From Candidatus Nitrosopumilus sp. (GTDB lineage Archaea > Thermoproteota > Nitrososphaeria > Nitrososphaerales > Nitrosopumilaceae), in contig JAOUAE010000007.1 in NCBI GenBank assembly GCA_029861085.1, positions 1 through 22,013 of the forward strand: a stretch of DNA of 22,013 bases. Direction: 5' to 3'. The position numbers were made by a program, and so were the translations under genes. Of the stretch, positions 2,313 through 22,013 are shown piece after piece. The notes beneath the pieces are model-generated. The model was not told the DNA's origin, made no database searches, and saw only the letters and a program-made list of their open reading frames with translations. Position 1 is the stretch's first letter. Every line of letters begins with the position of its first letter.

Positions 2313-3989
2313 CTAAGGTTCAAGATAATCAATTACTTCTTTGGAAAAAGATTTCAAATTAGAGGGGCATTTTCCATTGTCAATTTCAGTTAATGCAGGT
2401 ACAATCCACTTGTTCTTTTTTCTATTGGATTTTATCCAGCTTTCTAATTCCCCTGTAGGAACAATGAAGATACCGTGATTTTTCAAAGAATCCAATAGTT
2501 CTTTAGCACATTCTTTAATTGATAGGTCCATTGCGTCAATTCCTCCTTCTTTGATAATTTTCCAACTTGTCCCTCCAGATTCAATTCTACTTAACGCGCC
2601 TCTGAACCCTGCAAGAGTATGTTCTTCTTGATCAAGTTGTTCAATTAATTCTTTAACTTCATTCTTGCATTTTTCTAAGATTTCTTTTTCAGATGAACCA
2701 TTAATGAAATTCATAATTTTTTCTTGATCTTCTAAATAATTGGGAGGAATGTCGTCCATAAATGCAGAAAGTAGTTTTTTGAAATCATCTTTGGAATTTA
2801 ATATGTCTATATCTATTATTGTTGAAACTGAAACAGTTACTTTCTTGAGCAAATCAACTATGTCTTTAATGAGATGTTTTCCATGACTATGAATGAATAA
2901 AATATTATTAACAAAATGTTCCTTTTGAAAGACTTTTTGATAAAAAATTCTATCAGTATCAGATTCACAAACCACAACACCTTCAGAAAAAATTGCCTCA
3001 TGAACAGATTGACTTGAAAGAATAGGGGATTGAGTTAGATTAGTAATTGAAGTTGAAGTGATTTGTGAAAAAGATGTGTTGTTTCCTTTTCGATTAAGTC
3101 TAAAAACATCTACTTGATTATTTCCAGATAATATACCTGCGAGAAAATTAGCATTGTGAGTTGCAATGATAATTTGTGCATCCAACTCATTTAGATACTC
3201 TGATATCCATCGTCCTAAACCTCTAGCTTGAATGGGATGTAAAAATGCCTCTGGTTCATCTAAAAGAATTATTCGTTGCCTGCAGAGTAATATGGATAAT
3301 GCAACGCCAACAAATGATTTGTACCCATCACCTTGATCGTTCAAGGTTTCATAATTTTTAAAATAATCATATTTTTCATTCAGTTCAGAAGGTTCTTCAC
3401 CTTCAAATTTTTCTGTTATTCTAAATGAAATATCTGCAGGTTCAGCAGCTAATTTTATTTCACGGTTGAAAATATTTCTAAAAGTATCTTCTAGTTCTTT
3501 TTTTGCTCCAGTTTTATCCATGAGTAATATTTGAGATAGATTTGGAGGAGGGGTACCAATTTTTATAACATTTCGCTGGGTTGCAATTTGTAATTTACTT
3601 TGAGCATCCAAATGAGCAACATGAAATTTCCCAAGTTGCTCAAAAAAATTTGCAAGAGGAGTACCATCATACTGTTCTATAGTTTGATGATTCAGAGTTC
3701 CAGTAGTACCAGTTAACAATGTGGAATCAAGCCCATCAAAATTTAGCAATAATGAATTTCCTGTATGAGGATTTTGATAAAGACCAGCAGTTAATTTCTC
3801 AAATGTGGTAGGTTTTATGAATTCAATATTTTGAATAATTTTAGGATTCCAATTATTGGATTTTATTAAACGATTATGAATGTCCTTTAAAAATTGGGAT
3901 TTACCAACGTTGTTTGGTCCAACTAATACAGTTATTTTTTTTGGATTGATTTCAAATATGTCTGAAAGAATAATGCTCTCTATTCTCAT
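2313..3989 (-). CDS. OLD-family ATPase with TOPRIM nuclease domain
   Basis: A predicted overcoming-lysogenisation-defect (OLD) type protein: an ABC/SMC-like ATPase fused to a TOPRIM domain, usually a DNA nuclease controlled by nucleotide binding. The 558-aa protein shows a Walker A motif GPNNVGKS (24-31), a signature-like segment around 217-231, Walker B ILLDEPEAF (241-249, Asp244/Glu245) and an H-loop His278 in IIATHNANF. The TOPRIM part begins near 337 with Glu342 in CESDTD and continues to the metal-binding DID at 393-395. A conserved-looking GELESW motif lies at 513-518. The family includes P2 Old and GajA of the Gabija system, but no UvrD-like partner is visible here. The gene leads a two-gene unit with the membrane zinc-ribbon protein. 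A RecF-like repair role cannot be excluded. Confidence 0.86.
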   Translation of the reverse strand: MRIESIILSDIFEINPKKITVLVGPNNVGKSQFLKDIHNRLIKSNNWNPKIIQNIEFIKPTTFEKLTAGLYQNPHTGNSLLLNFDGLDSTLLTGTTGTLNHQTIEQYDGTPLANFFEQLGKFHVAHLDAQSKLQIATQRNVIKIGTPPPNLSQILLMDKTGAKKELEDTFRNIFNREIKLAAEPADISFRITEKFEGEEPSELNEKYDYFKNYETLNDQGDGYKSFVGVALSILLCRQRIILLDEPEAFLHPIQARGLGRWISEYLNELDAQIIIATHNANFLAGILSGNNQVDVFRLNRKGNNTSFSQITSTSITNLTQSPILSSQSVHEAIFSEGVVVCESDTDRIFYQKVFQKEHFVNNILFIHSHGKHLIKDIVDLLKKVTVSVSTIIDIDILNSKDDFKKLLSAFMDDIPPNYLEDQEKIMNFINGSSEKEILEKCKNEVKELIEQLDQEEHTLAGFRGALSRIESGGTSWKIIKEGGIDAMDLSIKECAKELLDSLKNHGIFIVPTGELESWIKSNRKKNKWIVPALTEIDNGKCPSNLKSFSKEVIDYLEP

Positions 3990-4210: not shown

Positions 4211-5719
4211 CTACATCCCTTTAACAAATAATACAAAGTGCTTGACTTCTGCAAAAATTGCCATATTGGTGTCTTTGGTTAAAACACACGCATTTCTATT
4301 ATCTAAAACCGCTAACAATTTTTTATCATTTGCAACTCCGGATGCCAATAGGTGGGTGTCAAAATCATCAAATCCAATTAACCCATTTAGCTTATGTTCA
4401 CGAAGTTCAGTAATCTCTCTTTGGGCACCTCGCTTTATGTCTGGTTGTTTTTTATCCAATTCTTCATAAACAAATGAGGGTAAAAGAAAATCATTCTCCT
4501 TAAAATATTGATTTGAATTAAGATCTTTAGAAACGATTCTAGAAATTACAGTACTAGTATCCAAAGTAATTGTGTTTTTCTTGAAATGAGTCCTGAAATT
4601 AGGTACGCTGATGAGATTTGAGCATCTTGAACAATACAATTTAGTGCCACTTTTTTTATCAAACATTACATCTACACGAGATAATTCTTTAGAACAATGT
4701 TCACAAATTACAGATAATCCAGTTCTGCGTCTGGGATATTTTTCGTCAATTTTTATTATATTTACCCATTTTTTTCTCACAAATGAAGGGAATTCTGCAT
4801 CAGGTAACCTCTTTCGATATTCTTTCAAATATCTCTCAGTCATCTCATTTGAAGCAGCACCAGAACCAGGAAATATCATTTCCTTGGTTTCATTGTCAAC
4901 AAATGTATTGGTGTTATTGATATGGGTAATCTCATCTGCTCTTGCTTTACGTGCGATTAGAGATGCCAATTTGCATGCCGTGTATTGCTCATCCGCTTTA
5001 TTTTTTACAACAATGATTGTATTTTCTGAACTTATTTTTTTTAGATATTTTGCTAATTCATGTTGTACGCCATAGTCATCAATAACTACAGAAATTTTGG
5101 ATTTACCTTGTATGGCAGAATTAATCAAATTCATGTACCCTCTATCTAAAAGAACATTTTTTGAACCAGAATCAAGTTCAGATGCGGAATAAATCTTTAC
5201 ATTTCCTTCATATGAACCTGAAACTGCATTTAAAATTTGATTGAGTTCTCTTTCATTTAATCCTCGTATATTTTTTCCTTTAACTATGTCACAAATTGAC
5301 TCTAGATTTTTTTTCGGGATTACTGCACAACCTAAAAACATTGAACCAAAAGATTCCCCAACTCCAGATTCATCACATCCGATATAATATTCACTAATTA
5401 ATTCACTTTCTTCTTTTGGAACAATTTCTTCTTTTTCAATAGGAGTTATTGAAAGTATTTTTGACATGTTTTCAATAAGGATCCCATAGACACTGTTTGA
5501 AGGACTTGATTGTATCATAAATTTTCTATTCTTGTAATATGTAAAATTGATTTTCCCTTCAGTGGTTTTTATCGTAAATGCTTCTTTAGTTCCTTGTTGA
5601 ATTGGTCTTTCTATTATTGTAAATCTAGATTTGAGGTCATTTACAATTTTCATGTAATCGTCATTGCTTAAATTTTCAAAAACAGTATTTGGTTTCAATT
5701 TTGTTATTACAAGATTCAT
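4211..5719 (-). CDS. RNase HIII-like / zinc ribbon / PIN domain fusion nuclease
   Basis: A multidomain predicted nuclease of 502 aa. Residues 1-90 look like the TBP-like N-terminal substrate-binding domain of RNase HIII. Residues 110-320 form the RNase HII/HIII core: DESG (Asp116, Glu117), Asp214/Asp215 in VVIDDY, and KADEQY (Asp243/Glu244) followed by the helix ACKLASLIARKARADE, so all four acidic catalytic positions are accounted for. A zinc ribbon follows (Cys339, Cys342, Cys363, Cys366). Residues 383-500 form a PIN domain with LDTS (Asp387), Glu419/420, Asp454 and LTKD (Asp483), the four acidic positions of active PIN ribonucleases. RNase HIII-type proteins cleave RNA in RNA-DNA hybrids, and PIN domains usually cut single-stranded RNA. 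Most archaea carry a single-domain RNase HII, so this architecture is unusual. The target is unknown; the neighbouring OLD-type ATPase suggests a conflict role. Confidence 0.85.
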   Translation of the reverse strand: MNLVITKLKPNTVFENLSNDDYMKIVNDLKSRFTIIERPIQQGTKEAFTIKTTEGKINFTYYKNRKFMIQSSPSNSVYGILIENMSKILSITPIEKEEIVPKEESELISEYYIGCDESGVGESFGSMFLGCAVIPKKNLESICDIVKGKNIRGLNERELNQILNAVSGSYEGNVKIYSASELDSGSKNVLLDRGYMNLINSAIQGKSKISVVIDDYGVQHELAKYLKKISSENTIIVVKNKADEQYTACKLASLIARKARADEITHINNTNTFVDNETKEMIFPGSGAASNEMTERYLKEYRKRLPDAEFPSFVRKKWVNIIKIDEKYPRRRTGLSVICEHCSKELSRVDVMFDKKSGTKLYCSRCSNLISVPNFRTHFKKNTITLDTSTVISRIVSKDLNSNQYFKENDFLLPSFVYEELDKKQPDIKRGAQREITELREHKLNGLIGFDDFDTHLLASGVANDKKLLAVLDNRNACVLTKDTNMAIFAEVKHFVLFVKGM

Positions 5720-6137: not shown

Positions 6138-7019
6138 TCATACATTGTGATAAAAATCATGGTGTGCCTTGATGTATCTACTCATAAACCACCTTACAAA
6201 GTAAAAGTCATTGTCCGTAATCTGTGACTTTTCCAAAGCTGAATAATACATTACACGTTTGCCATACTCTACATCAAGCATAGGATATCCAAACTCATCT
6301 AGTATTTTATTCATTATTAATCGAGAAACTCTACCATTTCCATCACCAAATGGATGAATCGATACAAATCTGAGATGTGCACGAGCTGCTAGTTCTGCAG
6401 GATTTAGAATTTTTTTATTTTTATTGTACCATCTAAAAAACTCCTTTAACATTAATGGAATCACATTAGGATCTGGAAACTCTGTCTTGCTTTGCCCTAC
6501 TCTCACATGATAGTCTCTTATTTTTCCTGCAATGTCAGGCTTTGTCTTATCAAACATTGCCTTGTGCCAGTATAGTACCGTAGCAAGTGATATCTTGTTC
6601 TTATGGTACAACATCTCATCAAATATCTTTTTGTGCATCTCAGTCTCTACCATGTGGTCTTTGGGTTTTGTAGCTGGTGTTATACCATAAAGTAAAAGAT
6701 TTGTAGTTTCTTGCAGTGTAAGTGTAGAGCCTTCAATCTTTTGCGTGTTGTATGTAAAGATAACTGCAAAGTCCTCAATCTGTTTTTGCAGAACTGTTTT
6801 TGGTACTTTCTTTTTGTATTTTTTATATCCTGTGCTAATCTCTTTAATCTTTGATAACCAATCATTGCGATAAAACTGCATCAAAAACTCTTTTTTTATC
6901 TCCTCTATGTTATCTGGAATCTTTTTGCCCAGATAGACCTCTTTTTCTTTATCTTTGGTGTGGTGTCTGAGATAGTAAAAGTCATTGTTCCCTATTTTCT
7001 TTTTTACTATTCTTACCAT
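6138..7019 (-). CDS. Fic family protein (probable AMP-transferase), class II self-inhibited
   Basis: Fic enzymes usually transfer AMP from ATP to a hydroxyl side chain of a target protein. The 293-aa protein has the full Fic motif HPFGDGNGRVSR at 222-233 (catalytic His222, anion-binding Asp226-Gly-Asn-Gly-Arg) and an inhibitory helix motif TQKIEG at 92-97, matching the (S/T)xxxE(G/N) rule. Because this lies N-terminal to the Fic motif in the same chain, it is a class II, auto-inhibited Fic protein needing no separate antitoxin. The first 60 residues form a small basic extra domain. A GGGGGGT ribosome-binding site sits 11 nt before the ATG at 7017-7019. A reading frame of 60 codons continues past its TGA, so a longer ancestral form is possible. 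The target is unknown. Confidence 0.9.
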   Translation of the reverse strand: MVRIVKKKIGNNDFYYLRHHTKDKEKEVYLGKKIPDNIEEIKKEFLMQFYRNDWLSKIKEISTGYKKYKKKVPKTVLQKQIEDFAVIFTYNTQKIEGSTLTLQETTNLLLYGITPATKPKDHMVETEMHKKIFDEMLYHKNKISLATVLYWHKAMFDKTKPDIAGKIRDYHVRVGQSKTEFPDPNVIPLMLKEFFRWYNKNKKILNPAELAARAHLRFVSIHPFGDGNGRVSRLIMNKILDEFGYPMLDVEYGKRVMYYSALEKSQITDNDFYFVRWFMSRYIKAHHDFYHNV

Positions 7020-7027
7020 GATACAGA

Positions 7028-7036
7028 TTACCCCCC
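7028..7036 (-). promoter_or_regulatory. strong Shine-Dalgarno-like site of the Fic gene
   Basis: On the minus strand GGGGGGTAA ends about 8 nt before the ATG at 7017-7019, close to the archaeal anti-SD complement GGAGGTGA. Most genes in this window lack such a site, so this supports the chosen Fic start and a leadered transcript. Confidence 0.55.
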
Positions 7037-7121
7037 GAATTATATTAATATTTTTTACATTTACACATAAAGGGGACTAGTTTAACCTCAATAATTACCG
7101 CATCACACCTACCAAAAATAA

Positions 7122-7214
7122 CTAGTATGTTTTTAGTATCTTCTTGATATGGTGTAACTCCTTTTTTATTTTCTCACTGTTTTCATTTAATTTCTCTTCA
7201 ATACTTTGCCTCAT
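7122..7214 (-). CDS. small charged helical ORF, 30 aa, upstream of the Fic gene
   Basis: A 31-codon frame from ATG7212-7214 to TAG7122-7124 encodes a Lys/Glu-rich peptide beginning MRQSIEEKLNENSEKIKKEL. Isoleucine and leucine fall every three to four residues (5, 9, 16, 20, 23, 27), as expected for an amphipathic or coiled-coil helix. It lies between the 41-nt repeats and the Fic gene, 102 nt before the latter, on the same strand. An AT-rich TATA-like stretch (TTTTTATATAATT) precedes the ATG closely. It could be a small partner or regulator of Fic, or a chance frame. The rest of the 7020-7407 gap holds only the Fic ribosome-binding site and the repeats. Confidence 0.35.
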   Translation of the reverse strand: MRQSIEEKLNENSEKIKKELHHIKKILKTY

Positions 7215-7265
7215 ACTATAATTATATAAAAATTAAATTAAAGCCAAATAATTTGGTACAAAAAT

Positions 7266-7455
7266 TTTACACCACTTTCAAATTTGCATGATTTTTTTCT
7301 ACACCTTGATGTATCTATAATAATTTAACATACAATACATTTACACCACTTTCAAATTTACATAAAAATTTTCTACACCTGTTACTAATTATATTATTCC
7401 ATATCATCTATGCTGTTACACCCGTTTCAAATATTATATCTTTTTTATTGCACCC
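7266..7455. repeat. three 41-nt imperfect direct repeats at 74-75 nt period
   Basis: Copies lie at 7266-7306, 7340-7380 and, more diverged, 7415-7455. The first two match at 36 of 41 positions and share the first 20 bases TTTACACCACTTTCAAATTT and the last 8, CTACACCT. The third keeps TTACACC, TTTCAAAT and the closing CACC at the same offsets and runs over the last codons of the TFB-like gene. The intervening 33-34 nt segments are unrelated to each other. On the minus strand each repeat ends GAAA(G/C)(T/G)GGTGTAA. They may be operators or iterons, or tandem copies of the gene's 3' end. Confidence 0.7.
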
Positions 7456-8376
7456 ATACTTTACATCTAGTCTTGCAACAGTAAACAATTTCTTTGATAT
7501 GGAATGTTGAGTGCTATCCTCATGCTTGAAAAAATAACTGCCATTTTTTCTTGTATACATTACTCCCTCTTTGTCACATTTGAGACATCTTATCACTTCA
7601 TCTTTTATCTTTCTTATTGATTCAATCTCAAAATACTCATACATTATAGTATGTGAAAACTGGTGTTTGTGATATTTTTGCCAGTGAGAACTTACTGCTT
7701 CTCTTCTGTCTTGTTTGCAAAAACTACAATATTTTTTATATTTTTTTAACGAGTATGGGCTTCGCTTAGAGTTTGTCTTTGGTCCTGGCTTTTTTCTGTT
7801 GTATATATTCTCATATGACTCTTTTTGAAAAATTGGCCATGTTGATATGTTTTTTACATCATGTTGAGTCTTTTTTGATTTTTTCTTCTTTGTTGATTTT
7901 GAATATGGAATGTTTAATTCTTTTAGTGTATACTTTACGATCTCCTTTCTGACTTGTTTGCTTAGTAAAGAATAATTCTCATTTGACTCTGAATCTAGTC
8001 TGTTTGCTTTATTTCTAATGATGTCGCAAATTAATGTATGATTTTTCATATGCTGGTGTGTCAGTCTGCTTCTTGCATCCTTTTGCATGTCTTGTATGTG
8101 ATGCTCAAAGTTGTCATATTTTAGATTCTTTTCATCAGTTTTTGTAATTTGTTTATTTGTGGAGTAAACTTTTTTCCCAGTATAATCACGGTCATAAATT
8201 CGAGAACCCATTCCTCCATAAACTGAATCCTGTGATACCTTGCCTGTCTGCCCTTGCATCTCCATGATACTTTCATTCTCATAGCCAAAGATAATACCAC
8301 ATTTACCACACACTATCTCATCATCACTAGTTACAACTCTGTCTTTTTGCTCACATGTACACTCTTGAGAACTCAT
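7408..8376 (-). CDS. TFB-like zinc-ribbon protein with two extra zinc-finger-like motifs
   Basis: The 322-aa protein opens with a zinc ribbon like that of archaeal transcription factor B (Cys6, Cys8, Cys23, Cys26, then CGIIFGYE), followed by YGGMGSRIYDRDYTGKKV at 53-70, resembling the B-reader/linker of TFB that sits near the RNA polymerase active centre. The cyclin folds that bind TBP and DNA are not recognisable. Instead there is a basic middle with a KKKKSKK patch (163-169), then CSFC...HWQKYH (Cys217, Cys220, His231, His236) and CLKC...H...H (Cys264, Cys267, His285, His291), both plausible zinc fingers. It may therefore reach RNA polymerase through the ribbon and DNA through the fingers, as an element-specific initiation factor or a decoy; that is inference. 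It is divergent from the winged-helix gene. Its last codons lie within the third 41-nt repeat. Confidence 0.75.
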   Translation of the reverse strand: MSSQECTCEQKDRVVTSDDEIVCGKCGIIFGYENESIMEMQGQTGKVSQDSVYGGMGSRIYDRDYTGKKVYSTNKQITKTDEKNLKYDNFEHHIQDMQKDARSRLTHQHMKNHTLICDIIRNKANRLDSESNENYSLLSKQVRKEIVKYTLKELNIPYSKSTKKKKSKKTQHDVKNISTWPIFQKESYENIYNRKKPGPKTNSKRSPYSLKKYKKYCSFCKQDRREAVSSHWQKYHKHQFSHTIMYEYFEIESIRKIKDEVIRCLKCDKEGVMYTRKNGSYFFKHEDSTQHSISKKLFTVARLDVKYGCNKKDIIFETGVTA

Positions 8377-9748: not shown

Positions 9749-10039
9749 ATGAAAGACAGAATATCAAACAAAAAAAGAAGACAACATGTAAGAAAGATTT
9801 TCAAGCTTGGCAACAACGGAAAAACCTCCAGTCATGTAGTAACGATCCCAAAAGACTTTCTTGAAACTTTGAGTATTGATAACAATAACAAAGTAATCAT
9901 TAGTTTGGAAAATGAAAATGATCATTTCTTTATTAAAATTCTAAAACTAGATGAAAACTTTACAGAAAGCATCTCAAAAAGTAAAATAGAAAAAAGAAAA
10001 ATTAATTTAGATTCACAGGAGTTTGAGAACTGGGATTAG
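9749..10039 (+). CDS. AbrB/MazE-type swapped-hairpin DNA-binding protein
   Basis: The 96-aa protein carries a SpoVT-AbrB-like fold at about 13-65: a strand KIFKLGNNGKTSSHVVTIPK, then FLETLSIDNNNKVIISLEN and a closing strand HFFIKILKL. The V-T-I-P-K turn followed by a helix and a strand is the family signature. Such proteins dimerise by swapping hairpins and act as repressors or as antitoxins; no toxin gene is adjacent on the same strand. The tail (68-96) is charged. ATG9749 follows an AT-rich TATA-like run. Its stop overlaps the stop of the convergent actin-like gene by 3 nt. A centromere-binding adaptor for that actin-like protein is possible, but neither orientation nor sequence proves it. 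Confidence 0.7.
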   Translation: MKDRISNKKRRQHVRKIFKLGNNGKTSSHVVTIPKDFLETLSIDNNNKVIISLENENDHFFIKILKLDENFTESISKSKIEKRKINLDSQEFENWD

Positions 10040-10866
10040 TTCATGGCACTTTTTGCATATTCTAACATACCTGTTGCATTTGAAAATACAGGATCCCCTA
10101 CAGCACATAATGAATCTGCAATCTTTCTTTTGAGATGATTGTACAAGCCTGGAACGAGTATTCCGCCACCAGACAATATTATATCATAGCTGTTATTTGC
10201 AGCTAGATTTGTCTTAAATGAAGCTAGGTTTTCAGATATTATATCAGCTAACATCTCTATTCTTTTTGGGTTTGGCTTGTTTGAATTATTAAGATACTGT
10301 AATTCATCTGAACCTAAATGTATGTAATCGCAAGCTTGAGGTATTGATCTTCCAAGAATTGGTTTTAGGTTATCAAATGCTACTAGTTCTGTAGTTCCCT
10401 GACCAATTGCAAGAACAATGCCATCTTTTTTCCTTGATGACATTAGTGTTCCAATTGTTTGCGGCACCACCATCACATCTTTGCAATTAGTTATCTTTTT
10501 GACAAAGCTGGGAAATTTTATTGCATCTTTTGCTGCATGGTATGGCAATCCAATTATGATTGATGTTTTTGGTATGGAATCATCTGAAATTTCTAATCTT
10601 TTGATTGCCTGATTTACCACTGCCACAAAGGCTGTCTTGTTTGATGGCGTGCCTTCTCGTACTGGTTGTAATAATACGGCTGATGGATGCCTTGCAATCT
10701 CTACTGCGTCATATCCTGCACCTTCAACAATTGTTGTACCTTTTTTGTTATTCTCCCAGGGATCTGCATCTCTATAGGCATAAAGAGATGGAAATCTGAC
10801 TTTTTTCTGGACAGAGCAGGCCTTTACAAAACCTGTCCCAATGTCTAGTGATATTGTTTGACTCAT
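10036..10866 (-). CDS. actin-like ATPase, ParM/Alp type (plasmid segregation)
   Basis: An actin/Hsp70-fold (ASKHA) ATPase of 276 aa. It has the phosphate-1 loop LDIGTGFVK (7-15), the phosphate-2 loop LAIGQGTTELVAF (152-164) and the adenosine motif ILSGGGILVPGL (230-241). At about 280 residues it is shorter than ParM (320) or MreB (335-345), but keeps all nucleotide-binding elements. Plasmid proteins of this type form filaments that push DNA copies apart; small archaeal relatives such as Thermoplasma Ta0583 polymerise in vitro. It is divergent from the large HerA/VirD4-type ATPase gene, sharing a 106-nt promoter, and convergent with the AbrB-type gene. This context favours plasmid partition over cell shape. 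No ParR-type adaptor is identified with confidence. Confidence 0.82.
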   Translation of the reverse strand: MSQTISLDIGTGFVKACSVQKKVRFPSLYAYRDADPWENNKKGTTIVEGAGYDAVEIARHPSAVLLQPVREGTPSNKTAFVAVVNQAIKRLEISDDSIPKTSIIIGLPYHAAKDAIKFPSFVKKITNCKDVMVVPQTIGTLMSSRKKDGIVLAIGQGTTELVAFDNLKPILGRSIPQACDYIHLGSDELQYLNNSNKPNPKRIEMLADIISENLASFKTNLAANNSYDIILSGGGILVPGLYNHLKRKIADSLCAVGDPVFSNATGMLEYAKSAMN

Positions 10867-10972
10867 GATTAATTGATGCTACATTAAATTTAAAGCAAAA
10901 ATCTCAAATTTTACAAATTATATAATTTTCAAATTTACATTTTTTCTGACTTTAAATTTAAAATATATTCAT
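10867..10972. promoter_or_regulatory. divergent promoter between the actin-like and HerA/VirD4-type genes
   Basis: The 106 nt are almost all A and T. Two palindromes are visible, TTAAATTTAA at 10884-10893 and TTTAAATTTAAA at 10951-10962, plus the related words CAAATTTTACA (10905-10915) and CAAATTTACA (10930-10939). The second lies in TTTCAAATTTACAT, a 14-mer also present in the 41-nt repeat at 7340-7380. The symmetry suggests operator sites serving both genes. Confidence 0.4.
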
Positions 10973-13900
10973 ATGTATATGGTAAGTAAATGGACTCTAG
11001 CAGTTGAATCAAAACAACTCGGGGCCCTTGATAAGATAACTGAATTTAGTTCACCAAACCAAAAAAAGAATCAAAAAGAATCATCATTACCCTTACGGGC
11101 AGTTGAGATAGTAATTCCAATTGATCAGGATATAAAAAAAGCAGTAATTACTGCTGGCAGTATCATTTCGTCTTCTGTAAGATCATTTGAGTTAATATGG
11201 GACAAAAAAGAAAACAGGCTATCATTCTGGTTGGTATCAAACATACATGACATCACTCATTATGTGGATGCCTTCAAGTCAGTATATCCCAACGCAGATT
11301 TTGAAAATCTAGATTACACCATACCAGAATGGTTTGATCCAAGAACAAACTACAAAGTATTTGATGCAAGTGTGAGACATGGAAACTTTTTTGCAGTAAT
11401 GGATCATCAAAAGACTCCTGCACTAATCACACAAATATCAAACACAATACAAATGGCACAGTACGGCTGGATTCAGTTTATCTTTCAAAGACATGACATT
11501 ACAAATTATATCAACAGTTTTTCTCAGATTCTCGATTCAATGAAAAGAAAAGTATCAAACACAAAATATCGAAGTGAGCCGGAATCCCTTTTTTCTGATT
11601 ATTTCCAATTACACAACCATCCAGAGTTTGGTGGTGACTTTGCAAGAAACTATAAGACACTAAAGCATCATGCAGAATTTAAAACCATTAATCCACAAAT
11701 GATAATGTCCATTCGTGGCCTGATAAATTCTGACGGTGATCTTGACTTTGGATTTGACGTAATTGAGAATATCTCACTTGAGAACATTCATGCACCCTTT
11801 GAGCATTGCACAAAAAACTCGTATGATAATTATAGAAAATTCTATAATTCTGACCCAAAAAAGGCACAATACATCAAGATTGGCAAAAGAAACACAAACT
11901 GTCAGAGAATTGACATGTTCTCTTTGAGGTTACTGCCAAAACCTGAAGGATTAATCCAAAAGGCATTTGATAACTATGCTGGAACTAACATGTTTGGGAG
12001 ATACCACAAAAGAAAGCCACTTCCATTTTTGCTACTAAACACGTCTGAGATGCCATTATTCATTCACCTGCCTGATGTTACGGTGAAACACTTGCGTTTA
12101 ACTCGGGGCCAAACCCTACCTAGAACATCTAGTGACAAGATTGGATTTCGTTTGGGTTTATTTGAGATTGACAAAATTAATGACAAAAAATATCCCGTAA
12201 AATACGGTGAAATTGTCTCATCAAATGACATCAGTGGAGTTACAGTTCATTATGATGATTACACACGACATCAGTATGTTGTTGCAGCTTCTGGTGCTGG
12301 AAAATCAACTTTGCTGCGTTCCATGGCAAAACACATCGAGATGGCAAATCTGAATGGAGTGTTTAATTCTGCATTTGTCTATGCTGACTTTAAGGGAGGC
12401 CGGAATCCTGACAGTATAAAATTCATCAAACAGCTAGACCAAAAGACATTACATTCAGGCAAAGTTTTGTATTTGGATCCATCTGAAACTAACTTTGCAA
12501 TAAATCCATTAGAGTTGCCAAGAAACTATGATGGAGCAAAACGTGAAGAGATTGTAGATAGATACATTGGATATTTTATGAGAATAATGGAGCAATTCTA
12601 TTCGCAAAAGCAGACGTATGTGCAAATGGAGCGAATAATGAAAGTAATATTGCAATATTTGTACTCTTTTGATGATGCGCCAACATTTCGAGATATTTAT
12701 GAAATTGTTGCAGAGCTGGAGTCAGGTGGGCAGCAAGTGTTATCTGAAATATTTGAGACTTTGGGAAAACCTGAAGCAGAACTATACAAGGCATTAACAA
12801 GTATCAGTGAGCTAAAACCTGACACATTCTCCCCACTACTAAACAGACTGGAACCATTCAGCACATCACCAATTCTAAAAAGAATCTTTACTACAAAGCA
12901 CTCTAGTGTTGATTTTAGCACCATTGTACAATCTGGCAGTTACACTGTAGTATCAATGAATGAGACCAACATGTCTTCTATTGCAGCCCCACTAGCTCAG
13001 ATGGCATTTGTCCTAAAGATATGGTTTGAGGTCCAAGAACAAAGCCGAAACAAAGAAACCAAGATGAAAGATGTCATACTGGTATTAGATGAGTTTCAAA
13101 TTATTGCAGGTCTTGATACCATACCAATGATATTGGCACAAGCTCGCTCCTTTGGACTGGGATTGTGTTTGGCTCATCAGAATCTATCACAAATTCCAAC
13201 TGAACTTTTACAGACCATAGTTGGAAATACTGCAACTCAGTTTGCAGGAAGACTCTCAGGCATTGATGCCTCAAAGATAGGTATGATCATAGACCCAAAG
13301 TATGGAAAAGACATTGCAGCAATGCTTGCAGTGCAGTCCGACTTTAGATTCTTGGCAAGAACAAGGCCCATTCTAGGTGAAGAGACCAGTCTGCCACCAC
13401 AGTTCTGGTTGGACTATCCATGTACAGAAAACATGACTGATGAACAGTTTTCACAATTCATCATGCAGCAAAAAGAAAAATATGGAAATGTTACACCTGA
13501 GGAAACATTACTCGTATCCAAAAATGTTGATAAAAACAAGTGGATGCAACAGCTAGAAAATGATATCACTACAATTCCACCAAAAACTGAATGGCAGATT
13601 CTTGTGTCATTATATTCTCATGAAAAGTTGTCATTAATGGAGATTGTCAGAATTTGCAATTTCACTCAACCACGTGATGATATATCCAAGTTGTTGAGAA
13701 ACATGAATGAACGAAAACTAATTGAAATTGCCGAAAAAATACAAAAAGGTCGTGTTACCATAATAAAATATCAATTATCTAATGAAACAAAAATAAAATA
13801 TTTTGATCTTGACTATTCAAAGATTGGAACAGCTTCTGATATTTCTGATGTTGCAAAAAATGCAGTAGAACATTATCTTAAGGAAGGACATTTTGTAAGT

Positions 13901-14413: not shown

Positions 14414-14629
14414 TTAAATTTTTTCTATTACGAGCTTTTTTCCTACAACCTTACAGTCAAATTCATCCCCCTCTCTCCAGTTCAATTTCTCTATCATCTC
14501 AGGCGGAATCGTAAAATCCCACCTGTACCATTCCTTTCCGTCCTTATTCTTGCGGCTAAGTTGTCTCTTTAACTTCATGAGTAATGTCTCATCAAGCGTA
14601 ATATCCATCAGTATAAATTGTTTGTACAT
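14414..14629 (-). CDS. small AbrB/MazE-like DNA-binding protein
   Basis: The 71-aa protein has a SpoVT-AbrB-like C-terminal half: YRWDFTIPPEMIEKLNWREG followed by the strands DEFDCKVVG and KKLVIEKI (residues about 35-71). The preceding 30 residues are basic. Proteins of this type are transition-state-like repressors or antitoxins. Its own first codons, MYKQ, are read from one of three TGTACATAC repeats that continue upstream, so it very likely represses itself and the divergent small operon. Met8 is a possible later start that would free that repeat from the coding region. No toxin is recognisable beside it; the 89-aa protein across the promoter has no known toxin motif. Confidence 0.7.
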   Translation of the reverse strand: MYKQFILMDITLDETLLMKLKRQLSRKNKDGKEWYRWDFTIPPEMIEKLNWREGDEFDCKVVGKKLVIEKI

Positions 14630-14680
14630 ACTGATATATAAATCGTCTGTACATACACATATAAGATAGTCTGTACATAC
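14623..14680. promoter_or_regulatory. three TGTACATAC direct repeats between divergent genes (operators)
   Basis: Exact copies of TGTACATAC lie at 14623-14631, 14648-14656 and 14672-14680. The starts are 25 and 24 nt apart, a little over two helical turns, and each contains the palindrome TGTACA. TATA-like words (GATATATAAAT, CACATATAAG) are interleaved. The first copy covers the start codon of the AbrB/MazE-like gene. This is the layout of an operator set that blocks both divergent promoters. Confidence 0.65.
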
Positions 14681-14686
14681 TACAGC

Positions 14687-15310: not shown

Positions 15311-16860
15311 TTAATTCTGGTTGTACGCAGATATTGCAAAGCGGTTCTCACTTACTGCAACACAGTCTGGATACAGGTAGACTCCTTCATAGAGACAGTC
15401 AGTGTATTGTCTGTTCTTTCCATGCATGTCACCATGTGCCTTGACTGCGTTAGACCAGTTAAATGCTACCATTCCAAATTCTTTTGGAGTATGGTATTGA
15501 TTTCCATCCTTTACCATTGCTATACTCCAAAAATTGTCTGAATAATCAAACCAATCATTCTGATTGGAATCAATTAATGGTTTTGATAGTATCTGGTAGA
15601 CATTTTCATTTTGGTCATAGAGCCATTCTGCACCATCTGATAATTCTCCATCACCGTTTAAATCCAGAAATAGAGTCATGGTTCCATCATCAAGTGTTCT
15701 TGATAGTGTGACTTTTTCTCCAGTAGCATACAAATCAAATTCAGTCAAAAATGATTCATGTTGTTCTGGCCAATTTCTAATAACATTTGCGTGCTTATCA
15801 GTCATTGAGAATACTAATGGATCGCTCTTGTCAGGACCGCTCTTACCGTCATTGTTCCAATCTACTTTTTTGGTTGGATGTATCTGATCTAGATATCTTG
15901 ATGTTTCCATTTGCATCGATTGTAAAGTCCACACATCTTCCTTTTGAAAGAGAAAACTTGAATGGAGAATCAACAATATTGTCTATTTCTCTATTTCCAC
16001 TGTCTTGGTTAAATGATTCTGTTTTTGCAACAAGTTCTTTGTTCTCACATGTAACCTTAAAGTCATATGTTATTGTAAATGCTTGTAAAGGGAAACATGG
16101 ATCTATAGGGGCCCTGAAAGTAGCGACATCCTTTCCGAAAAACCATGGAAATTTTGCAGTCAAAGATGCATCATTATTATCACTGCTTCCTTTTCCAGAC
16201 AATTGTATTTTGTCATTTGGTTGATCAATAACACCATTACTCATCGGATCTTCTAAAGCATGATATGTTTTAATTATCCCGTCTTCGTTTTTCTTAATTT
16301 TGGATATAATTTCTTCACTTGATACAGATTGTATTGATGGTTCAGATGTAGGAATTGGGCTTGGAGGTGATATCTTTGGTGGTTCATTTGGATTATTCCA
16401 CGATGATGTGATTTCAAATGTTATTCTTGCAGCACCATGTGTTCCATTAAATCCACCTACTGTGTTTGTTGGATACTGTACATCACCACTCCACCTCTTT
16501 AATTTAAGATCATATGTAAAATCAAGTCTCTTTATTTCTGGGTGGACTGATGTCGACAAGATCATCGTGTTTTTTGTCATTATCCTACAATTCTATGTGT
16601 ATAAGAACCAGGGTTTTTTGATCAGTATTAACATTTTGTGTGAATTTTCAGTTGGGAAAAACCTTGATACCTTCAATTCTTCCGGTAGCTGGAAATTTGA
16701 TATTGTTTATGGATACTTTTGCATGTCACCGTTACCTTAACGATCTTTTTTTATCAGAATCTTCTTTCTGATAAATCCTTTTTATCTTTAGAGTGATTTC
16801 TTCAACGGGGGCATTTGCAGCTTCAGCAGAAGGTATTGCAACAGTTGACAAGACAAACAT
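15311..16860 (-). pseudogene. decayed gene for a secreted protein with a calcium-binding-like motif
   Basis: Reading right to left, coding starts at ATG16858-16860 with an apparent signal peptide, MFVLSTVAIPSAEAANA, followed by VEEITLKIKRIYQ. The frame breaks at a run of seven T (16746-16752), shifts again near 16700, and meets in-frame stops (TGA, TAG) before a 243-codon stretch from about 16580. That stretch breaks at a run of six T (15866-15871). Removing one base there joins IDANGNIKISRSD to VDWNNDGKSGPDKSDP in a 221-codon tail. The tail has DWNNDGKSGPDKSD and DLNGDGELSDGAEW, loops of calcium-binding type. The original protein would have been about 510 aa, exported. I recognise no named family. 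With several lesions it is more likely a pseudogene than one with sequencing errors, though two breaks are in homopolymers. Confidence 0.7.
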
Positions 16861-16968: not shown

Positions 16969-18495
16969 ATGTCTCAAGTTACTGATCATTCTGCTGAATT
17001 AATGAAATACTTGATGTTAAAATTATACAAAACAGTAACTGGAAGCGACCAAAACATTCAGCTGGCGAGAAACAAGTTCATCACATGGCTTATGCCTGGA
17101 ATACCATTTGCTCCTAATGATTTTAATTTTTGTCATAAAGGCTTAGTTGGAGATGAAAAAAACTCAACTCAAGACCTATATCATCAAGCTTTTGTCTTAT
17201 CAAAATTATTTGATTTTATTCCAGACATACCAAACCTAGGAAGTGAAGGAAATCAATTTCAGGATACAGAGAACTTTTTGCAAACCACGTATACTACCTC
17301 ACAAGACACATTAAGTTCAGTGTGGAATGATGTTTTAAAATATAGCAGAGTAATTAATAATGAGATCAGTGAGAAGGAGAAAAAGAAATTAAAAAAATTC
17401 AGAAATTTGTTATCTGTTACCAAAGAAATAACCGATATTGTAACTGACGAAAAAAAGAAAGTTACTGAACCGGGTCCACTAACAATTGCATATACTGCTA
17501 AGATGAACGAGTATATCGAAGCAGCAGATGAATATATGAATATGTTAATTGACGCACAGGCAGGTGGTAATGATCCTGAATCCAGGAGAAAAGTTTCAGC
17601 TTGGGCAAACAAATCAAAATTTATGAGATTAAAGGTAGAGGCGGCTTGGGGAGCCTGGAATTCTCAAGGATACAAAAATGAATATGAACATATCAACGCG
17701 TACATTGAACAAGTCACGCAAAAAAGTATGGTGTTGTATAAACAAGACTTGCAAGAAAAATTCAAAAACGCATTATTGTCTAGCCCTGCAGAAGGAACCG
17801 CAGGTGATTTTTATTATACTACCTTAATTCCCGGAAATTTTGCAACCAGTCCAGGTTGGACAAAATTTTCATTTGGAGAAGGAGATATTGCAACATCTTA
17901 TTCAAAAGAAACAAAAGAATGGGGAGGAAAAGGTGGTATCAGTATTGGCTCTTTTTCTTTGGGTGGAAAAGCTTCTGGTTCAAAAACAAAAGAACTAACT
18001 AAAAACAAAACTACAAATTTCAAAGCATCGTTAGAATTTGTTCAAATCCCAATACTACGTGCATGGTTTGATCCTGGATTTTTCTCCATGAGAGCATGGA
18101 CTTTAGACAAACTTTGGGATTTAAATTTTGAAGGCAAAAAGGTTTCTGATGGAGAAATTCAACCTCAAGGTCGGTTAGTGGCCTATCCAGTAATAGCTCT
18201 CTTTGTAAGAAATGTGTCTTTTACATTTGATGATGCAGAAGAAGAAATAAAAGCATTGAAAGAAAAGATAGGCGGCGGTGGCTCACTAGGATGGGGACCG
18301 CTTAAAATTGGAGGTAGATATGAAAAAGGAAAGGAAACAAAAGATGTTCATTCTCACACAGAAAACGGTGAAGTCAAAATTGATGGTTTACAATTAATTG
18401 GATTTATAAATAATCTAATTCCAAAAGCACCTAATCCCAATCCAGATATTAGTCCTGAACAATTTGTTGGAGGGGAACAAACATCATCCGAATAA
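16969..18495 (+). CDS. 508-aa soluble protein, full-length paralogue of the inner half of the 946-aa membrane protein
   Basis: Function unknown. There is no signal peptide or membrane helix, so it is probably cytosolic. Residues 1-270 are helical. The rest is Gly/Ser-rich and strand-rich: GWTKFSF (296-302), EWGGKGGISIGSFSLGGKAS (317-336), IPILRAWFDPGFF (360-372), VSDG (392-395), GRLVAYPVIALFVRNVSF (401-418), GGGGSLGWGPLKIGG (435-449) and the ending IPKAPNPNPD (484-493). The order IxRxWF, SDG, Gr(L/I)P...hhVkN, (I/M)PK(A/S)PNPD recurs in the 946-aa protein, as do N-terminal landmarks such as YxxxF...IP(D/E) and VWNDVLK/LWDELIN. From memory, proteins with a similar C-terminal layout occur in bacteria and fungi as uncharacterised families. 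ATG16969 follows a TTAAATATT box about 25 nt earlier. The gene stands alone or leads the 946-aa gene after a 364-nt gap. Confidence 0.8.
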   Translation: MSQVTDHSAELMKYLMLKLYKTVTGSDQNIQLARNKFITWLMPGIPFAPNDFNFCHKGLVGDEKNSTQDLYHQAFVLSKLFDFIPDIPNLGSEGNQFQDTENFLQTTYTTSQDTLSSVWNDVLKYSRVINNEISEKEKKKLKKFRNLLSVTKEITDIVTDEKKKVTEPGPLTIAYTAKMNEYIEAADEYMNMLIDAQAGGNDPESRRKVSAWANKSKFMRLKVEAAWGAWNSQGYKNEYEHINAYIEQVTQKSMVLYKQDLQEKFKNALLSSPAEGTAGDFYYTTLIPGNFATSPGWTKFSFGEGDIATSYSKETKEWGGKGGISIGSFSLGGKASGSKTKELTKNKTTNFKASLEFVQIPILRAWFDPGFFSMRAWTLDKLWDLNFEGKKVSDGEIQPQGRLVAYPVIALFVRNVSFTFDDAEEEIKALKEKIGGGGSLGWGPLKIGGRYEKGKETKDVHSHTENGEVKIDGLQLIGFINNLIPKAPNPNPDISPEQFVGGEQTSSE

Positions 18496-18859
18496 AATTA
18501 TTGATAAGAATTTTAATTATTTAATAAAAAATACCATAATATGAGAAATATGATTTACTAATAATTTTAAAATAAATGGCATTAATCAAAACTGGAAAAT
18601 AAAACAACTGTTAGAAATAAAATATATGAATTAATAATGTTCTCATTTTATTAATTGTATCGAAAAATTTCAAATTTGTAGAATTTGAACATAACCACAG
18701 TTATATTTCTCTTTAATCATGTATTATCGAATTTACATTAAATAGGCTCATTAATTTTTATTGAAACATTATAACATTATTTGATTTCTAAAAACATCTT
18801 CACGTGAAAATATTTTCTATTGTTTAAAATCTTATATTAACAAACAGGATTTATAGTAT
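18496..18859. other. 364-nt AT-rich gap between the two paralogous genes
   Basis: No gene, RNA fold or repeat that I can support. It is highly AT-rich, with several T-runs after the 508-aa gene that could end transcription and TATA-like words (TTATATTT near 18700, TTATATTA near 18832) that could start it. The second lies about 20-28 nt before the GTG start of the 946-aa gene, which suggests an independent promoter. Confidence 0.4.
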
Positions 18860-21700
18860 GTGAATATTAAATTATTTTTCGTTGTTTTATTTTTGATGCT
18901 AATTGTTTCTTTTACAGAAATTAAGAATGTATCTGGACAAGTTGAGGGACTTGAATGTCCTGAATGTGAAAAACAAAAACTTCCTGTTGATTCTGATGGT
19001 GATGGAATATCAGATAACAAAGATAATTGTCCTATGAAAAAAAATTCTGAACAATTAGACTCTGATGCGGATGATGTTGGTGACATTTGTGATGATTTTC
19101 CCTCTGATCCTGATAATGATATTGATGGTGATAAGGTATCTGGTATTAGAGACAATTGTAAACAAGATTACAATCCAAATCAAGAAGATTCTGATGGTGA
19201 TATGATAGGTGACATTTGTGATGATTTTCCCTCTGATCCAAATAATGACATCGATAAAGATGGAGTATCAGGGGTCACAGACAATTGTAAACAAGATTAC
19301 AATCCAAATCAAGAAGATTCTGATGGTGATATGATAGGTGATATATGCGATTCTACTCCATTTTCCGTTATTTCACTCGATATTTCTCCTAGATTTGCAA
19401 CAATGGAGGCTGGAAATTTTTTCCAAACATCATTCAAGGTTAAAATGTCTGGAATGGTTCAACAAATCATTTTGTTGTCTTGTGATTTAGAACCTGTAGG
19501 TATGAGAGTTCTGGAAAATAGTGAAAAAATTACGTGTAGTGTGGACCCTACTAGATTTGTTTTAAATGAAAATTATCTTTCTAAAACTATTACACTAAAA
19601 ATAACCTCAGAACAGAACACTGTACCAGATACATACCCTTATGAATTAATTGCAAAAAGCAATATTGGTAATGATATAATACCCGTCCCTTTCTCCCTTA
19701 CTATTAAAGCAATTTCACCCACAGTAACAATTATCGCTCCAAATGATCAAGATGTTGATACTGAAATTGTTTTTGAAGCAAATCTGAACGATCCATCTAA
19801 CAAAATAAAAAAACTAGAGTGGGATTTTGGGGACGAGAGTCCAAAACAAATTGGCACAGTGGTAACACACATCTATAAGAGTGAGAATATTAATAGAGAC
19901 AAAACTTTTACCATTCGATTAACCTCATACTCTCAAGATCCAAATGGTAAGTATGACGAACTTGGTATGGTTTCTCATGACATCAAAATAACAAAACCAG
20001 ATTTTTTTGATCCAACAATGATATCTCTTATTGGTGTTGTAGGAAGCATAGCCATAGGACTAGTCACCCTTTTTATCACTAAACGAAAATCTAAATCCAC
20101 ATCTTCCAAATTTGAAGAAGAAAATACTGCAAAAAATATGTCCCAAGGAAATTTTTCAAGTACAGAAAAAATAATAGAAAAAGATACTGAAACAATATTG
20201 AAGGCATTATCAATAAAATTAGAAAAAATTTTTGAAACGAATGAAAAATTTCTTACATTTCCAAAAGGATTAGGATTCTCTCATAAAGAATTAGATTTTA
20301 TGAAAGATATATCAGAAAGTAATTTAACCCCAAAACAAAAATTAGATTATCAAGGACAATTCTCAAGACTGTTAAATATAATTCCTGAAGACCGTAATGT
20401 GTGGTCTCCAGATGCAAGTAGATTTTTGTGGGATGAATTAATTAATACGTTAAAAAATGCTGTTTTTGCCAAAAGTTCATTGACTCCAAAAGAACTTAAA
20501 CAATTAGATGAAGCCATAAATTTTCTACAGGACGAAAAAGTTGAGAATGAACAAAAAATTCCAATATACTCGTTACAACTCTCAAAATATTATGAATATA
20601 AAGAACTTTTCTTAAATGCTCACAGAACATATTTAGATGAAAAAATAACTGTGGAAAATTCCATAGGTCCAGAAAGCGAAAAATTACGAAAAAATTGGAC
20701 AGACTTTAGACAAAACCAACTAATTGAAACAAAAAACAAAGCAGAACAAGACTGGAAGAACTTAGGATATAAAGAAAAGGTAGAATACTGTCAATCTTTA
20801 CGGGAAAGTCTTGAACCCAAAAAATATCTAGGCATGTATAGAAATGCATATCTTAACGAGCTTAAGACATCGGAACTAACTGATTTAAATGGAGTAAGCT
20901 TTGGTTTCTTTGCCACCTTCTTTAGTCCTTCTGATGCATTTGACACAGAAGCATCTTGGAATCAATTAACGATGACAAAAAAAGAAATTGAAATACTTAC
21001 CAAGCAGGGCACTGGAATACTAGGAGATTTTAAATCTAATTTAGAAAATGTGGATTTTGAATCAATATCTATGAATTACAAGGAGATAGCCATAATACGT
21101 CCATGGTTCAAACAAGAATTTTTTACATCAAGAAATTGGAAATTACGTAATGAATCAATAATTTCTGATGGGAAGATACCTCGAAAAGGAAGAATTCCGT
21201 CATTCATAACAAGTATGATTGTAGTAAAGAATGTGAAAATTCACCGGAAGAAAACTCAGAATAGATTCTCACTCAATTCTCTTCTAAACAGATCAAATTG
21301 GAAGAAAACATTCTCTACAATGCCGATTGATAAAATAGTACCAAAGACTCCAGTGAAAAAAATTGACGTTGGAAACAAAGTTGGTTCATTGCTTGGGAGT
21401 ACTTCCTTTTTTAATGACAAGGAAAGGAAAAACGCTCAATCTAGAAATCTGAATTTAGACTCAATGTCTCATTTAGATCCAGAATTGGCTAGACAGTATA
21501 TTGAAGTAAAATACAAAGGAACAACTATTAAAACACCCATTTCTGACCTACCAATAAAATCTGAAGAATTATCAAAAAAATTCATTTCCAGTCAAGACTT
21601 AATCACAGATTCTTTTGAATTTGATGACCTCAAAATTTTAGCTTTTATTTGCAAACGAATGCCAAAATCTCCAAATCCTGATGAAAAATTGAATTGGTAG
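18860..21700 (+). CDS. 946-aa membrane-anchored protein: TSP3 repeats, Ig-like and PKD ectodomain, TM, cytoplasmic paralogue module
   Basis: A signal peptide (residues 1-27, ending VSGQ) is followed by CPEC and three thrombospondin type-3-like calcium-binding blocks (about 43-165: DSDGDGISDNKDNC, DSDADDVGDICDD and repeats). Next come an Ig-like beta domain (about 168-285) and a PKD-type domain with WDFGDES (321-327). A single transmembrane helix (about 386-407) is followed by KRKSKS, which sets the ~540 C-terminal residues inside the cell. This inner part matches the 508-aa protein end to end: KFLTFPKGLGF, YQGQFSRLLNIIPED (497-511), SWNQLTM (699-705), IAIIRPWFKQEFF (743-755), SDG (769-771), and MPKSPNPD (934-941). 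The architecture suggests an outer calcium-dependent adhesion or sensing domain coupled to an inner module. The start is GTG18860; the ATG two bases earlier is out of frame. Confidence 0.82.
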   Translation: MNIKLFFVVLFLMLIVSFTEIKNVSGQVEGLECPECEKQKLPVDSDGDGISDNKDNCPMKKNSEQLDSDADDVGDICDDFPSDPDNDIDGDKVSGIRDNCKQDYNPNQEDSDGDMIGDICDDFPSDPNNDIDKDGVSGVTDNCKQDYNPNQEDSDGDMIGDICDSTPFSVISLDISPRFATMEAGNFFQTSFKVKMSGMVQQIILLSCDLEPVGMRVLENSEKITCSVDPTRFVLNENYLSKTITLKITSEQNTVPDTYPYELIAKSNIGNDIIPVPFSLTIKAISPTVTIIAPNDQDVDTEIVFEANLNDPSNKIKKLEWDFGDESPKQIGTVVTHIYKSENINRDKTFTIRLTSYSQDPNGKYDELGMVSHDIKITKPDFFDPTMISLIGVVGSIAIGLVTLFITKRKSKSTSSKFEEENTAKNMSQGNFSSTEKIIEKDTETILKALSIKLEKIFETNEKFLTFPKGLGFSHKELDFMKDISESNLTPKQKLDYQGQFSRLLNIIPEDRNVWSPDASRFLWDELINTLKNAVFAKSSLTPKELKQLDEAINFLQDEKVENEQKIPIYSLQLSKYYEYKELFLNAHRTYLDEKITVENSIGPESEKLRKNWTDFRQNQLIETKNKAEQDWKNLGYKEKVEYCQSLRESLEPKKYLGMYRNAYLNELKTSELTDLNGVSFGFFATFFSPSDAFDTEASWNQLTMTKKEIEILTKQGTGILGDFKSNLENVDFESISMNYKEIAIIRPWFKQEFFTSRNWKLRNESIISDGKIPRKGRIPSFITSMIVVKNVKIHRKKTQNRFSLNSLLNRSNWKKTFSTMPIDKIVPKTPVKKIDVGNKVGSLLGSTSFFNDKERKNAQSRNLNLDSMSHLDPELARQYIEVKYKGTTIKTPISDLPIKSEELSKKFISSQDLITDSFEFDDLKILAFICKRMPKSPNPDEKLNW
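19151..19341 (+). repeat. 129-bp periodic repeat coding for thrombospondin type-3 units
   Basis: A 62-nt segment is identical at 19151-19212 and 19280-19341 (129 bp apart, 43 codons), encoding NCKQDYNPNQEDSDGDMIG. The adjoining GACATTTGTGATGATTTTCC segment also recurs. Identity at silent positions implies recent duplication within the 946-aa gene. Confidence 0.85.
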
Positions 21701-21854: not shown

Positions 21855-22013
21855 TTGTCAGGTTCCTCAAGAGATACTGAAGACTGGCATGATGATTCCA
21901 CTCAACCAACAAGTGAAGAGGACTGGCATGATGATTCCACTCAACCAACAAGTGAAGAGGACTGGCATGATGATTCCACTCAACCAACAAGTGAAGAGGA
22001 CTGGCATGATGAT
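21855..22013 (+). CDS. 5' part of a gene for an acidic tandem-repeat protein (cut by window end)
   Basis: An open frame continues to the end of the window. No ATG or GTG is available after the upstream TAA at 21831-21833, so TTG21855 is the likely start. TTTAATTATA at 21823-21832 is well placed as a TATA box, centred 27 nt before it, implying a leaderless message. The peptide begins MSGSSRDTE and then repeats the 13-residue unit DWHDDSTQPTSEE three times and starts a fourth. It is acidic, disordered-looking and lacks a signal peptide in the visible part. A reader cannot tell the function; only 53 codons are visible. Confidence 0.55.
   Translation, partial: MSGSSRDTEDWHDDSTQPTSEEDWHDDSTQPTSEEDWHDDSTQPTSEEDWHDD
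21882..22013 (+). repeat. perfect 39-bp tandem repeat
   Basis: Units at 21882-21920, 21921-21959 and 21960-21998 are identical base for base, and a fourth begins at 21999 and is cut by the window end. Each keeps the reading frame (13 codons). Complete identity points to very recent expansion by slippage or unequal crossing-over. Confidence 0.95.

Follow-up and report, generated by a model that had tools for sequence, protein, structure and literature searches.

What do two adjacent genes encode when their products share a module of about 500 residues, one of them soluble and the other anchored in the membrane? This question is raised by the end of a stretch of 22,013 nucleotides from Candidatus Nitrosopumilus sp. 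(contig JAOUAE010000007.1), which was analysed at its full length and is here called the window. A first-pass annotation, made from the letters of the DNA, had taken the two proteins for soluble and membrane-anchored versions of one unfamiliar module that could work together, and had considered a pore-forming, filament or injection-type role conceivable.

Subunits A and B are diverged paralogues

Subunit A (P0001; 16969..18495) is a soluble protein of 508 amino acids and a whole-length member of what we call the A/B family. Subunit B (P0002; 18860..21700), which begins with a GTG start codon, has 946 amino acids and is a form predicted to be membrane-anchored. Both are open reading frames on the forward strand, as are all features of the two subunits given below, and 364 nt separate them.

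All the landmarks that the annotation had listed as shared are present in both proteins and in one order. In A they are KFITW at residue 36, VWNDVLK at 118, GWTKFSF at 296, ILRAWFDPGFF at 362, SDG at 393, GRLVAYP at 401 and IPKAPNPNPD at 484; the counterparts in B are KFLTF (463), LWDELIN (523), SWNQLTM (699), IIRPWFKQEFF (745), SDG (769), GRIPSFI (777) and MPKSPNPDE (934). The homology goes beyond chance. BLASTP aligned A 111-416 with B 516-792 (E 6e-11), together with a separate C-terminal piece, and the profile-profile comparison that the annotation had proposed, run with hhalign on alignments of 44 A and 27 B sequences, gave a probability of 99.9% and an E value of 3.9e-32 over 432 columns. 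In AlphaFold2 models of the two proteins, proposed at the same stage, helices and strands run in identical order; the mean pLDDT was 70.3 for A and 56.0 for B, the low overall value of B being due to its ectodomain and linker, as pLDDT exceeds 90 across much of residues 450-790. The homology thus extends over the whole of A and over residues ~432-946 of B, which are diverged paralogues. The description of one module in a soluble and an anchored version is not supported, since the two proteins differ in architecture and no comparable transmembrane anchor was seen in the other B proteins examined. Because A has no long variable linker like that of B, and the B of the window has neither of A's two Gly/Ser-rich segments, they are distinct paralogues.

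In a tree of 55 sequences, the branching of the window's clade is similar on the A side and on the B side. Over all 55 rows the separation of A from B is unclean, with five changes per label, three of them forced by starred branches. Six A-type rows (L038, L009, L042, L010, L045 and one from L050), some of them long-branched, fall on a weakly supported B side (60/90). It is plausible from the sequences that a single ancient duplication gave rise to A and B. The alternative that the window simply holds two copies of one module was ruled out, as the A rows and the B rows of its clade form separate, well-supported groups.

Architecture of subunit A

No hydrophobic helix was detected in A by hydropathy. 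A long helical hairpin is predicted at residues ~170-252 (17476..17724; AlphaFold2, block pLDDT 67-82). No other part of the protein is covered by at least a fifth of its structural look-alikes, all of them helical hairpins of a generic kind. Two Gly/Ser-rich, hairpin-like segments follow, at residues ~315-350 (17911..18018; low-confidence model, block pLDDT 30-52) and ~432-470 (18262..18378; block pLDDT 52-66); given these low values, their hairpin shape is a guess from sequence. After each of them comes a conserved strand block, the first (residues 352-376, 18022..18096) built around IPILRAWFDPGFFSMRAW and the second (residues 474-493, 18388..18447) consisting of a C-terminal strand and the PKAPNPNPD motif.

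Both Gly/Ser segments can be traced by eye in 25/25 A-labelled sequences tabulated, L050 having been left out of the table. The share of Gly, Ser, Thr and Asn is 0.36-0.60 in segment 1 and 0.28-0.51 in segment 2, against 0.25-0.32 in whole A proteins. Segment 1 is weakest in L041, L043 and L049, and segment 2 of L045 is barely enriched (0.28 vs 0.25). In the B of the window a short helix replaces segment 1. At the position of segment 2, B proteins of the window's clade carry the variable linker, and some distant B proteins retain a GPF-like remnant.

Subunit B and its predicted membrane anchor

The B protein of the window starts with a predicted signal peptide (residues 1-~27, 18860..18940), seen as a hydrophobic N-terminus at residues 3-21, with a hydropathy of 3.55 over 12 residues and a model helix at 2-23. 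The annotation had placed calcium-binding TSP3 and PKD repeats in an ectodomain, and both families score above their curated cut-offs. The TSP3-type calcium-binding repeats (residues ~44-165, 18989..19354; PF02412, 51.9 bits) are matched in four stretches, and their PDB matches are cartilage oligomeric matrix protein and thrombospondin chains. Within this region, positions 19043-19300 hold a 129-nt duplication of 78% identity; the calcium-binding array has therefore expanded within the B gene. A PKD-like domain (residues ~286-377, 19715..19990) comes next; PF18911 (PKD_4) matches its residues 286-341 with 28.2 bits (cut-off 27), and its strands up to residue 377 lie in a low-confidence part of the model.

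A transmembrane helix at residues 385-406 (20012..20077) is indicated by hydropathy (388-406), by the model and by the sequence, and is directly followed by a positively charged KRKSK stretch. On hydropathy and charge, the module that follows (residues 432-946, 20153..21697) is predicted to be cytoplasmic, on the inner face of the membrane, in agreement with the side that the annotation had assigned to it. The module contains the variable linker (residues ~797-924, 21248..21631). In one relative (P0139) a ricin-type lectin is inserted in this linker, and in two others (P0143 and L006) PG_binding_1 occurs at the C-terminal end of B.

None of the other B proteins examined has a comparable transmembrane anchor fused to an ectodomain. 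Over 147 proteins, the sole other one above the 19-residue hydropathy threshold was P0112, with a marginal 1.66 that lies within the module. Over 155 proteins, two more B N-termini were borderline, both within the first helix of the module. Among 52 proteins from pairs, four were flagged as hydrophobic: two L005 ORFs, the B of L045 (1.62, internal) and one L050 protein. The A and B of L005, where the hydrophobic parts are upstream extensions of the longest ORF, and the internal stretches of the L045 B and P0112 were not counted as anchors. The anchored B thus looks like a local innovation, and for this reason a receptor role cannot be the general function of the family. Of the annotation's proposal that the anchored copy senses something outside the cell, what stands is a predicted receptor-like ectodomain, seen on the B of the window only; as a general function it falls, since the other B proteins examined lack the anchor.

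Distribution and pairing of the two genes

Of 7996 candidates scored in a search with A, 194 proteins, A among them, reached E<=0.01; the 119 relatives listed besides A are 51-68% identical to it. The listed relatives include proteins from Methanomethylovorans, Bacillus thuringiensis, Paenibacillus, Sporosarcina, Sorangium, Ferruginibacter, a terriglobium and a cyanobacterium. The search with B gave 27 proteins including itself. In sampled genomes the family is rare, patchy and accessory: it was found in 3/292, 1/247, 1/246, 6/296 and 3/346 genomes of phylum samples, in 3/289 of a class-level sample, in 3/87, 1/10, 1/81 and 1/80 of family-level samples and in 1/6 of a genus-level sample, the centre genome being counted in each and the samples overlapping. 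Relatives are also found in plasmid records of Acuticoccus, Rhizobium and Sinorhizobium. A viral origin of A/B was considered and rejected, as tblastn against 50,697 phage records gave no relative of P0001 or P0153, and IMG/VR pattern scans with the A alignment (A1) and the B alignment (A2) confirmed none.

The annotation had suggested looking for the two genes in other genomes. In 19 of 21 loci outside the window (L001-L010, L050, G016, G141, G847, G961, G1002, G1040, G1067, G1299, G1373 and G1478), an A-type and a B-type gene are adjacent on one strand. The A gene comes first in 18 of these tandems and the B gene in one (L050); in G016 the order is A-B-B. The exceptions are L009, with A and no B, and L046, with a single 822-aa protein of weak match. 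In L003 and L008 the contig ends within B. The groups L002/L003, L007/L008 and L041/L043/L049 consist of close relatives rather than independent loci. The gap between A and B elsewhere is 13-156 nt, apart from -74 in L004, 511 in L007 and 507 in L008. In L040, a 117-aa ORF (6862-7215) between a trypsin-like gene and A matches the A/B profile (50.8 bits, profile positions 114-212); it may have arisen from the module and serve as a small inhibitor or regulator.

Pairwise distances of A and B are correlated, with r=0.866 in 11 pairs and r=0.823 in 16 of the 26 assembled pairs, in each case with 0/5000 permutations reaching the observed value in a test that ignores kinship. The most diverged pairs (L010, L038-L043, L045, L049 and L050) are outside this test, and for c3460, c11440, c3613, c215k, c5510 and c6937 the pairing was deduced solely from an equal length of the longest contig reported for each of the two proteins, and for Kow from consecutive locus tags as well. 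In the 11 pairs, B evolves at about double the rate of A (0.72 vs 0.36). From these data we take the pair to be transferred, and to evolve, as one unit within the clade of the window. The tandem arrangement and the correlated distances both speak for the annotation's idea that the two proteins work together.

The element that carries the pair

The window is likely one end of an integrated mobile element. A tRNA-like gene lies at positions 29-126, its anticodon region interrupted by what resembles an intron (Rfam, 40.5 bits; not reported by ARAGORN). By eye its anticodon would read GGA (Ser), and 12 nt after the gene a tyrosine integrase is encoded (139-1458). The window also encodes a TrwB/TraG-like (VirD4/TraG-like) ATPase; an IMG/VR scan for this protein confirmed no match. 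The sequence is AT-rich, and one zinc-ribbon protein resembles TFIIB by eye; together with the insertion in the tRNA-like gene, these features speak for a probable archaeal host. Integrated elements of Thaumarchaeota with VirD4 and TFIIB homologues have been described (excerpt of PMC6563490). The window resembles the elements in that excerpt in its integrase beside a tRNA-like gene and its VirD4/TraG-like ATPase, and fits their pattern of integrase, VirB4, VirD4 and TFIIB only in part; no VirB4 was recognised in it.

Other genes of the window include an OLD-like protein with AAA_21 and an OLD-like TOPRIM domain (2313-3989), an RNase HII with a sub-threshold PIN match (4211-5719) and a Fic protein (6138-7019), which together resemble a defence cargo carried by the element. 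For ORF 7408-8376 a weak match to DUF7830 was the only one obtained. An actin-like protein (10036-10866; ALP_N, a ParM/MreB relative and PHROG partition protein) is encoded beside the TraG-like ATPase gene, and the gap after the latter contains a 25-bp repeat in 2.8 copies (14612-14681), which could be an iteron or regulatory array. Upstream of A, two overlapping ORFs in different frames of the opposite strand (15311-15976 and 15849-16580, -) have no clear family and resemble a single gene broken by a frame shift. A 39-bp tandem repeat of 3.4 identical copies (21882-22013), which by eye gives a 13-residue repeat in one frame, runs past the end of the window.

Proteases and wall hydrolases beside the pair

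Neighbouring genes were picked by eye for Pfam scanning in 21 loci outside the window, and the figures are raw counts without a background rate. A protease or cell-wall hydrolase lies beside the pair in 9 of the 21 (L001, L002, L004, L039, L040, L041, L045, L046 and L049). On the strand of the pair are a papain-family peptidase (L001), a PG_binding and CHAP protein with CHAP below the curated cut-off (L002), an M15 peptidase (L004) and a PG_binding and N-acetylmuramidase protein recognised by Pfam only (L039). L040 has a caspase (C14, 108.9 bits) and a Trypsin_2 protein upstream, the latter scoring 23.7 bits and so falling short of its cut-off (27.6), with a PG_binding and N-acetylmuramidase protein downstream. 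Upstream of the pair, a CHAP and PG_binding protein is found in L041 and a Trypsin_2 protein (28.2 bits, just over the cut-off) in L045. PG_binding and GH19 accompany a lipase in L046, and SH3 and GH19 are found in L049, GH19 being below the Pfam cut-off in both. The protease neighbours come from three loci: the papain of L001, the caspase and sub-threshold trypsin of L040 and the trypsin of L045. A calcineurin-like phosphoesterase on the same strand in L005 and the PG_binding carried by B itself in L006 are outside the count of nine.

PHROG endolysin families were matched by the products of L002 (2.6e-10), L040 (2.9e-85), L041 (1.3e-11), L046 (5.1e-48) and L049 (5.5e-53), a family of tail lysozymes matching the L041 product better still (2e-29). 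No PHROG family matched the M15 peptidase of L004. By hydropathy, none of the neighbouring proteases and hydrolases has a hydrophobic N-terminus. Among the selected ORFs scanned, no protease or hydrolase was recognised in 10 of the 21 loci (L003, at a contig edge, L007-L010, L038, L042-L044 and L050). None was recognised beside the pair of the window, which ends 313 nt after B with the downstream side unseen; elsewhere many hydrolases lie on the downstream side of the pair. Genes for an injection apparatus or for secretion were not seen among the selected neighbours scanned.

On the Sinorhizobium plasmid (L050), where B precedes A, both subunits start with export-signal-like sequences, and five TIR-domain genes stand in a run (10662-13514) a few kilobases from the pair. 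The Acuticoccus plasmid has an A without a B, between two proteins having export-signal-like starts.

Comparison with known systems

The module found no credible match among known families, defence models and solved folds. A text-based literature search recognised no published description of the A/B pair, which is not proof of its being undescribed. Pfam and PADLOC contain gasdermin models, and neither P0001 and P0002 nor, by these two resources, 35 members of the A/B family matched a gasdermin. A Foldseek comparison of the A model (mean pLDDT ~70) with the gasdermin chain 7n52_D (E 1.1, TM 0.12/0.22) is without weight. As described in an excerpt of PMC9612521, bacterial gasdermins have caspase-like and other proteases as neighbours, and sometimes lysozymes or amidases that are likened to endolysins. 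The A/B loci have such neighbours in 9 of 21 cases; however, A and B are a paralogous pair of ~500 aa each.

A phage holin is a small protein with one or more transmembrane helices that makes a hole. The A/B loci resemble holin-endolysin cassettes in having endolysin-family hydrolases without a hydrophobic N-terminus beside the pair (L002, L040, L041, L046 and L049), and in L039 a muramidase without an export signal, seen by Pfam only, has the same place. In contrast to holins, A and B are large (508 and 946 aa) and mostly without transmembrane helices, the single one in the B of the window belonging to the fused anchor. The match to the alpha-pore-forming toxins Ahl, Smh and Yax/Xax is limited to the helical hairpin, where numerous helical proteins of other kinds match equally well, and unlike these toxins A and B have an additional conserved beta part. 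In the excerpt of PMC7159879, NTP-dependent conflict systems use caspase, trypsin, lysozyme and papain effectors. The partners of A/B are of similar peptidase and peptidoglycan-attacking kinds, but the NTPase cores of those systems were not seen among the A/B neighbours scanned; one of 35 A/B proteins weakly matches a domain of these systems (fvmX5, E 0.0054).

A possible role in opening the cytoplasmic membrane

The protease and wall-hydrolase neighbours suggest a cell-lysis device. Endolysin-type enzymes that lack a signal require something that opens the membrane, and so the simplest reading is that A/B opens it. Among the roles that the annotation had thought conceivable, pore formation is the most plausible, because of the endolysin and protease neighbours, and is unproven. 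Our main reading, to which we give a probability of about 0.4, is that A and B are a horizontally transferred pair whose assembly at the cytoplasmic membrane opens that membrane in a programmed-lysis or conflict cassette. The two Gly/Ser segments of A might serve as membrane-active or assembly elements. B would be a docking or targeting subunit, whose linker and ends take up lectin, peptidoglycan-binding or receptor-like parts. Caspase, trypsin or papain neighbours, where present, may activate the pair. The endolysin-type neighbours without export signals could then pass through the opening, which is how holin-endolysin cassettes work and what has been proposed for gasdermin loci. The B of the window would be pre-docked at the inner membrane surface and joined to a calcium-binding ectodomain, such that contact outside could trigger recruitment of soluble A. 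The fusion fits a lytic role in that it would fix B to the inner membrane face and link it to a domain outside.

Several observations count against lysis from within. The export-signal-like starts in Sinorhizobium and Acuticoccus favour an extracellular role in some lineages, and so does the presence of a lectin or a peptidoglycan-binding domain in certain B proteins; the loci in which no protease or hydrolase neighbour was recognised also weigh against it. A serious rival, which we nevertheless hold to be doubtful, is therefore a two-part toxin directed against other cells. It would be made without export signals and set free by lysis, or in some lineages exported, with B parts aiming, A acting and the hydrolases being co-delivered effectors. 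The lectin in the linker of P0139, PG_binding at the B end in P0143 and L006, the signal-like starts of both Sinorhizobium subunits, the relatives from Sorangium and Bacillus thuringiensis and the sparse, at times plasmid-borne distribution are all in keeping with such a toxin. However, the B module of the window is predicted to be cytoplasmic behind its transmembrane helix and could not reach another cell, caspase and trypsin neighbours better fit activation inside the producing cell, and the neighbours scanned included no secretion genes.

That A and B form an intracellular scaffold or compartment instead, such as a heteromeric filament, lattice or shell that organises enzymes and is tethered here to the membrane by the fused B, seems unlikely to us. 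The strong conservation of A among the 119 listed relatives, the heteromeric paralogues with their helical hairpin and the lack of a catalytic family match in A or the B module would suit a scaffold, but its distribution would hardly be so patchy and accessory (e.g. 3/292, 1/247, 1/246, 6/296, 3/346 and 3/289 genomes), and the recognised neighbours are mostly lytic enzymes. Very unlikely, and confined to the window, is the possibility that the fused B acts as a receptor at the cell surface and, through its module in the cytoplasm, brings in A as an adaptor for signalling, with no lytic role. Such a receptor would account for a signal peptide, a TSP3/PKD ectodomain, a transmembrane helix and an intact B module in one open frame, and the protein cluster of this fused form is reported on three contigs; yet no known signalling domain was found, and signalling is unlikely to be ancestral, as the architecture is absent from the other B proteins examined.

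If the pair does open the membrane in a lysis or conflict cassette, a wider claim may be made, which is itself open to considerable doubt: A/B would be a class of membrane executioners made of two subunits, hitherto unknown and often passed between lineages, unrelated in sequence to gasdermins and holins, working in bacteria with caspase, trypsin or papain activators and with endolysins, and would have entered archaea, where it is here coupled to a receptor by fusion of B to an ectodomain. Even without a mechanism, the pair is a good target for structure determination, as the listed relatives of A keep 51-68% identity across several phyla, the two subunits diverge in step and the module found no credible match to a named family. 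Should the lysis reading be true, bacteria and archaea would have in common an executioner without detected relatives among solved proteins, and the natural receptor-fused version in Candidatus Nitrosopumilus would make the question of its triggering testable.
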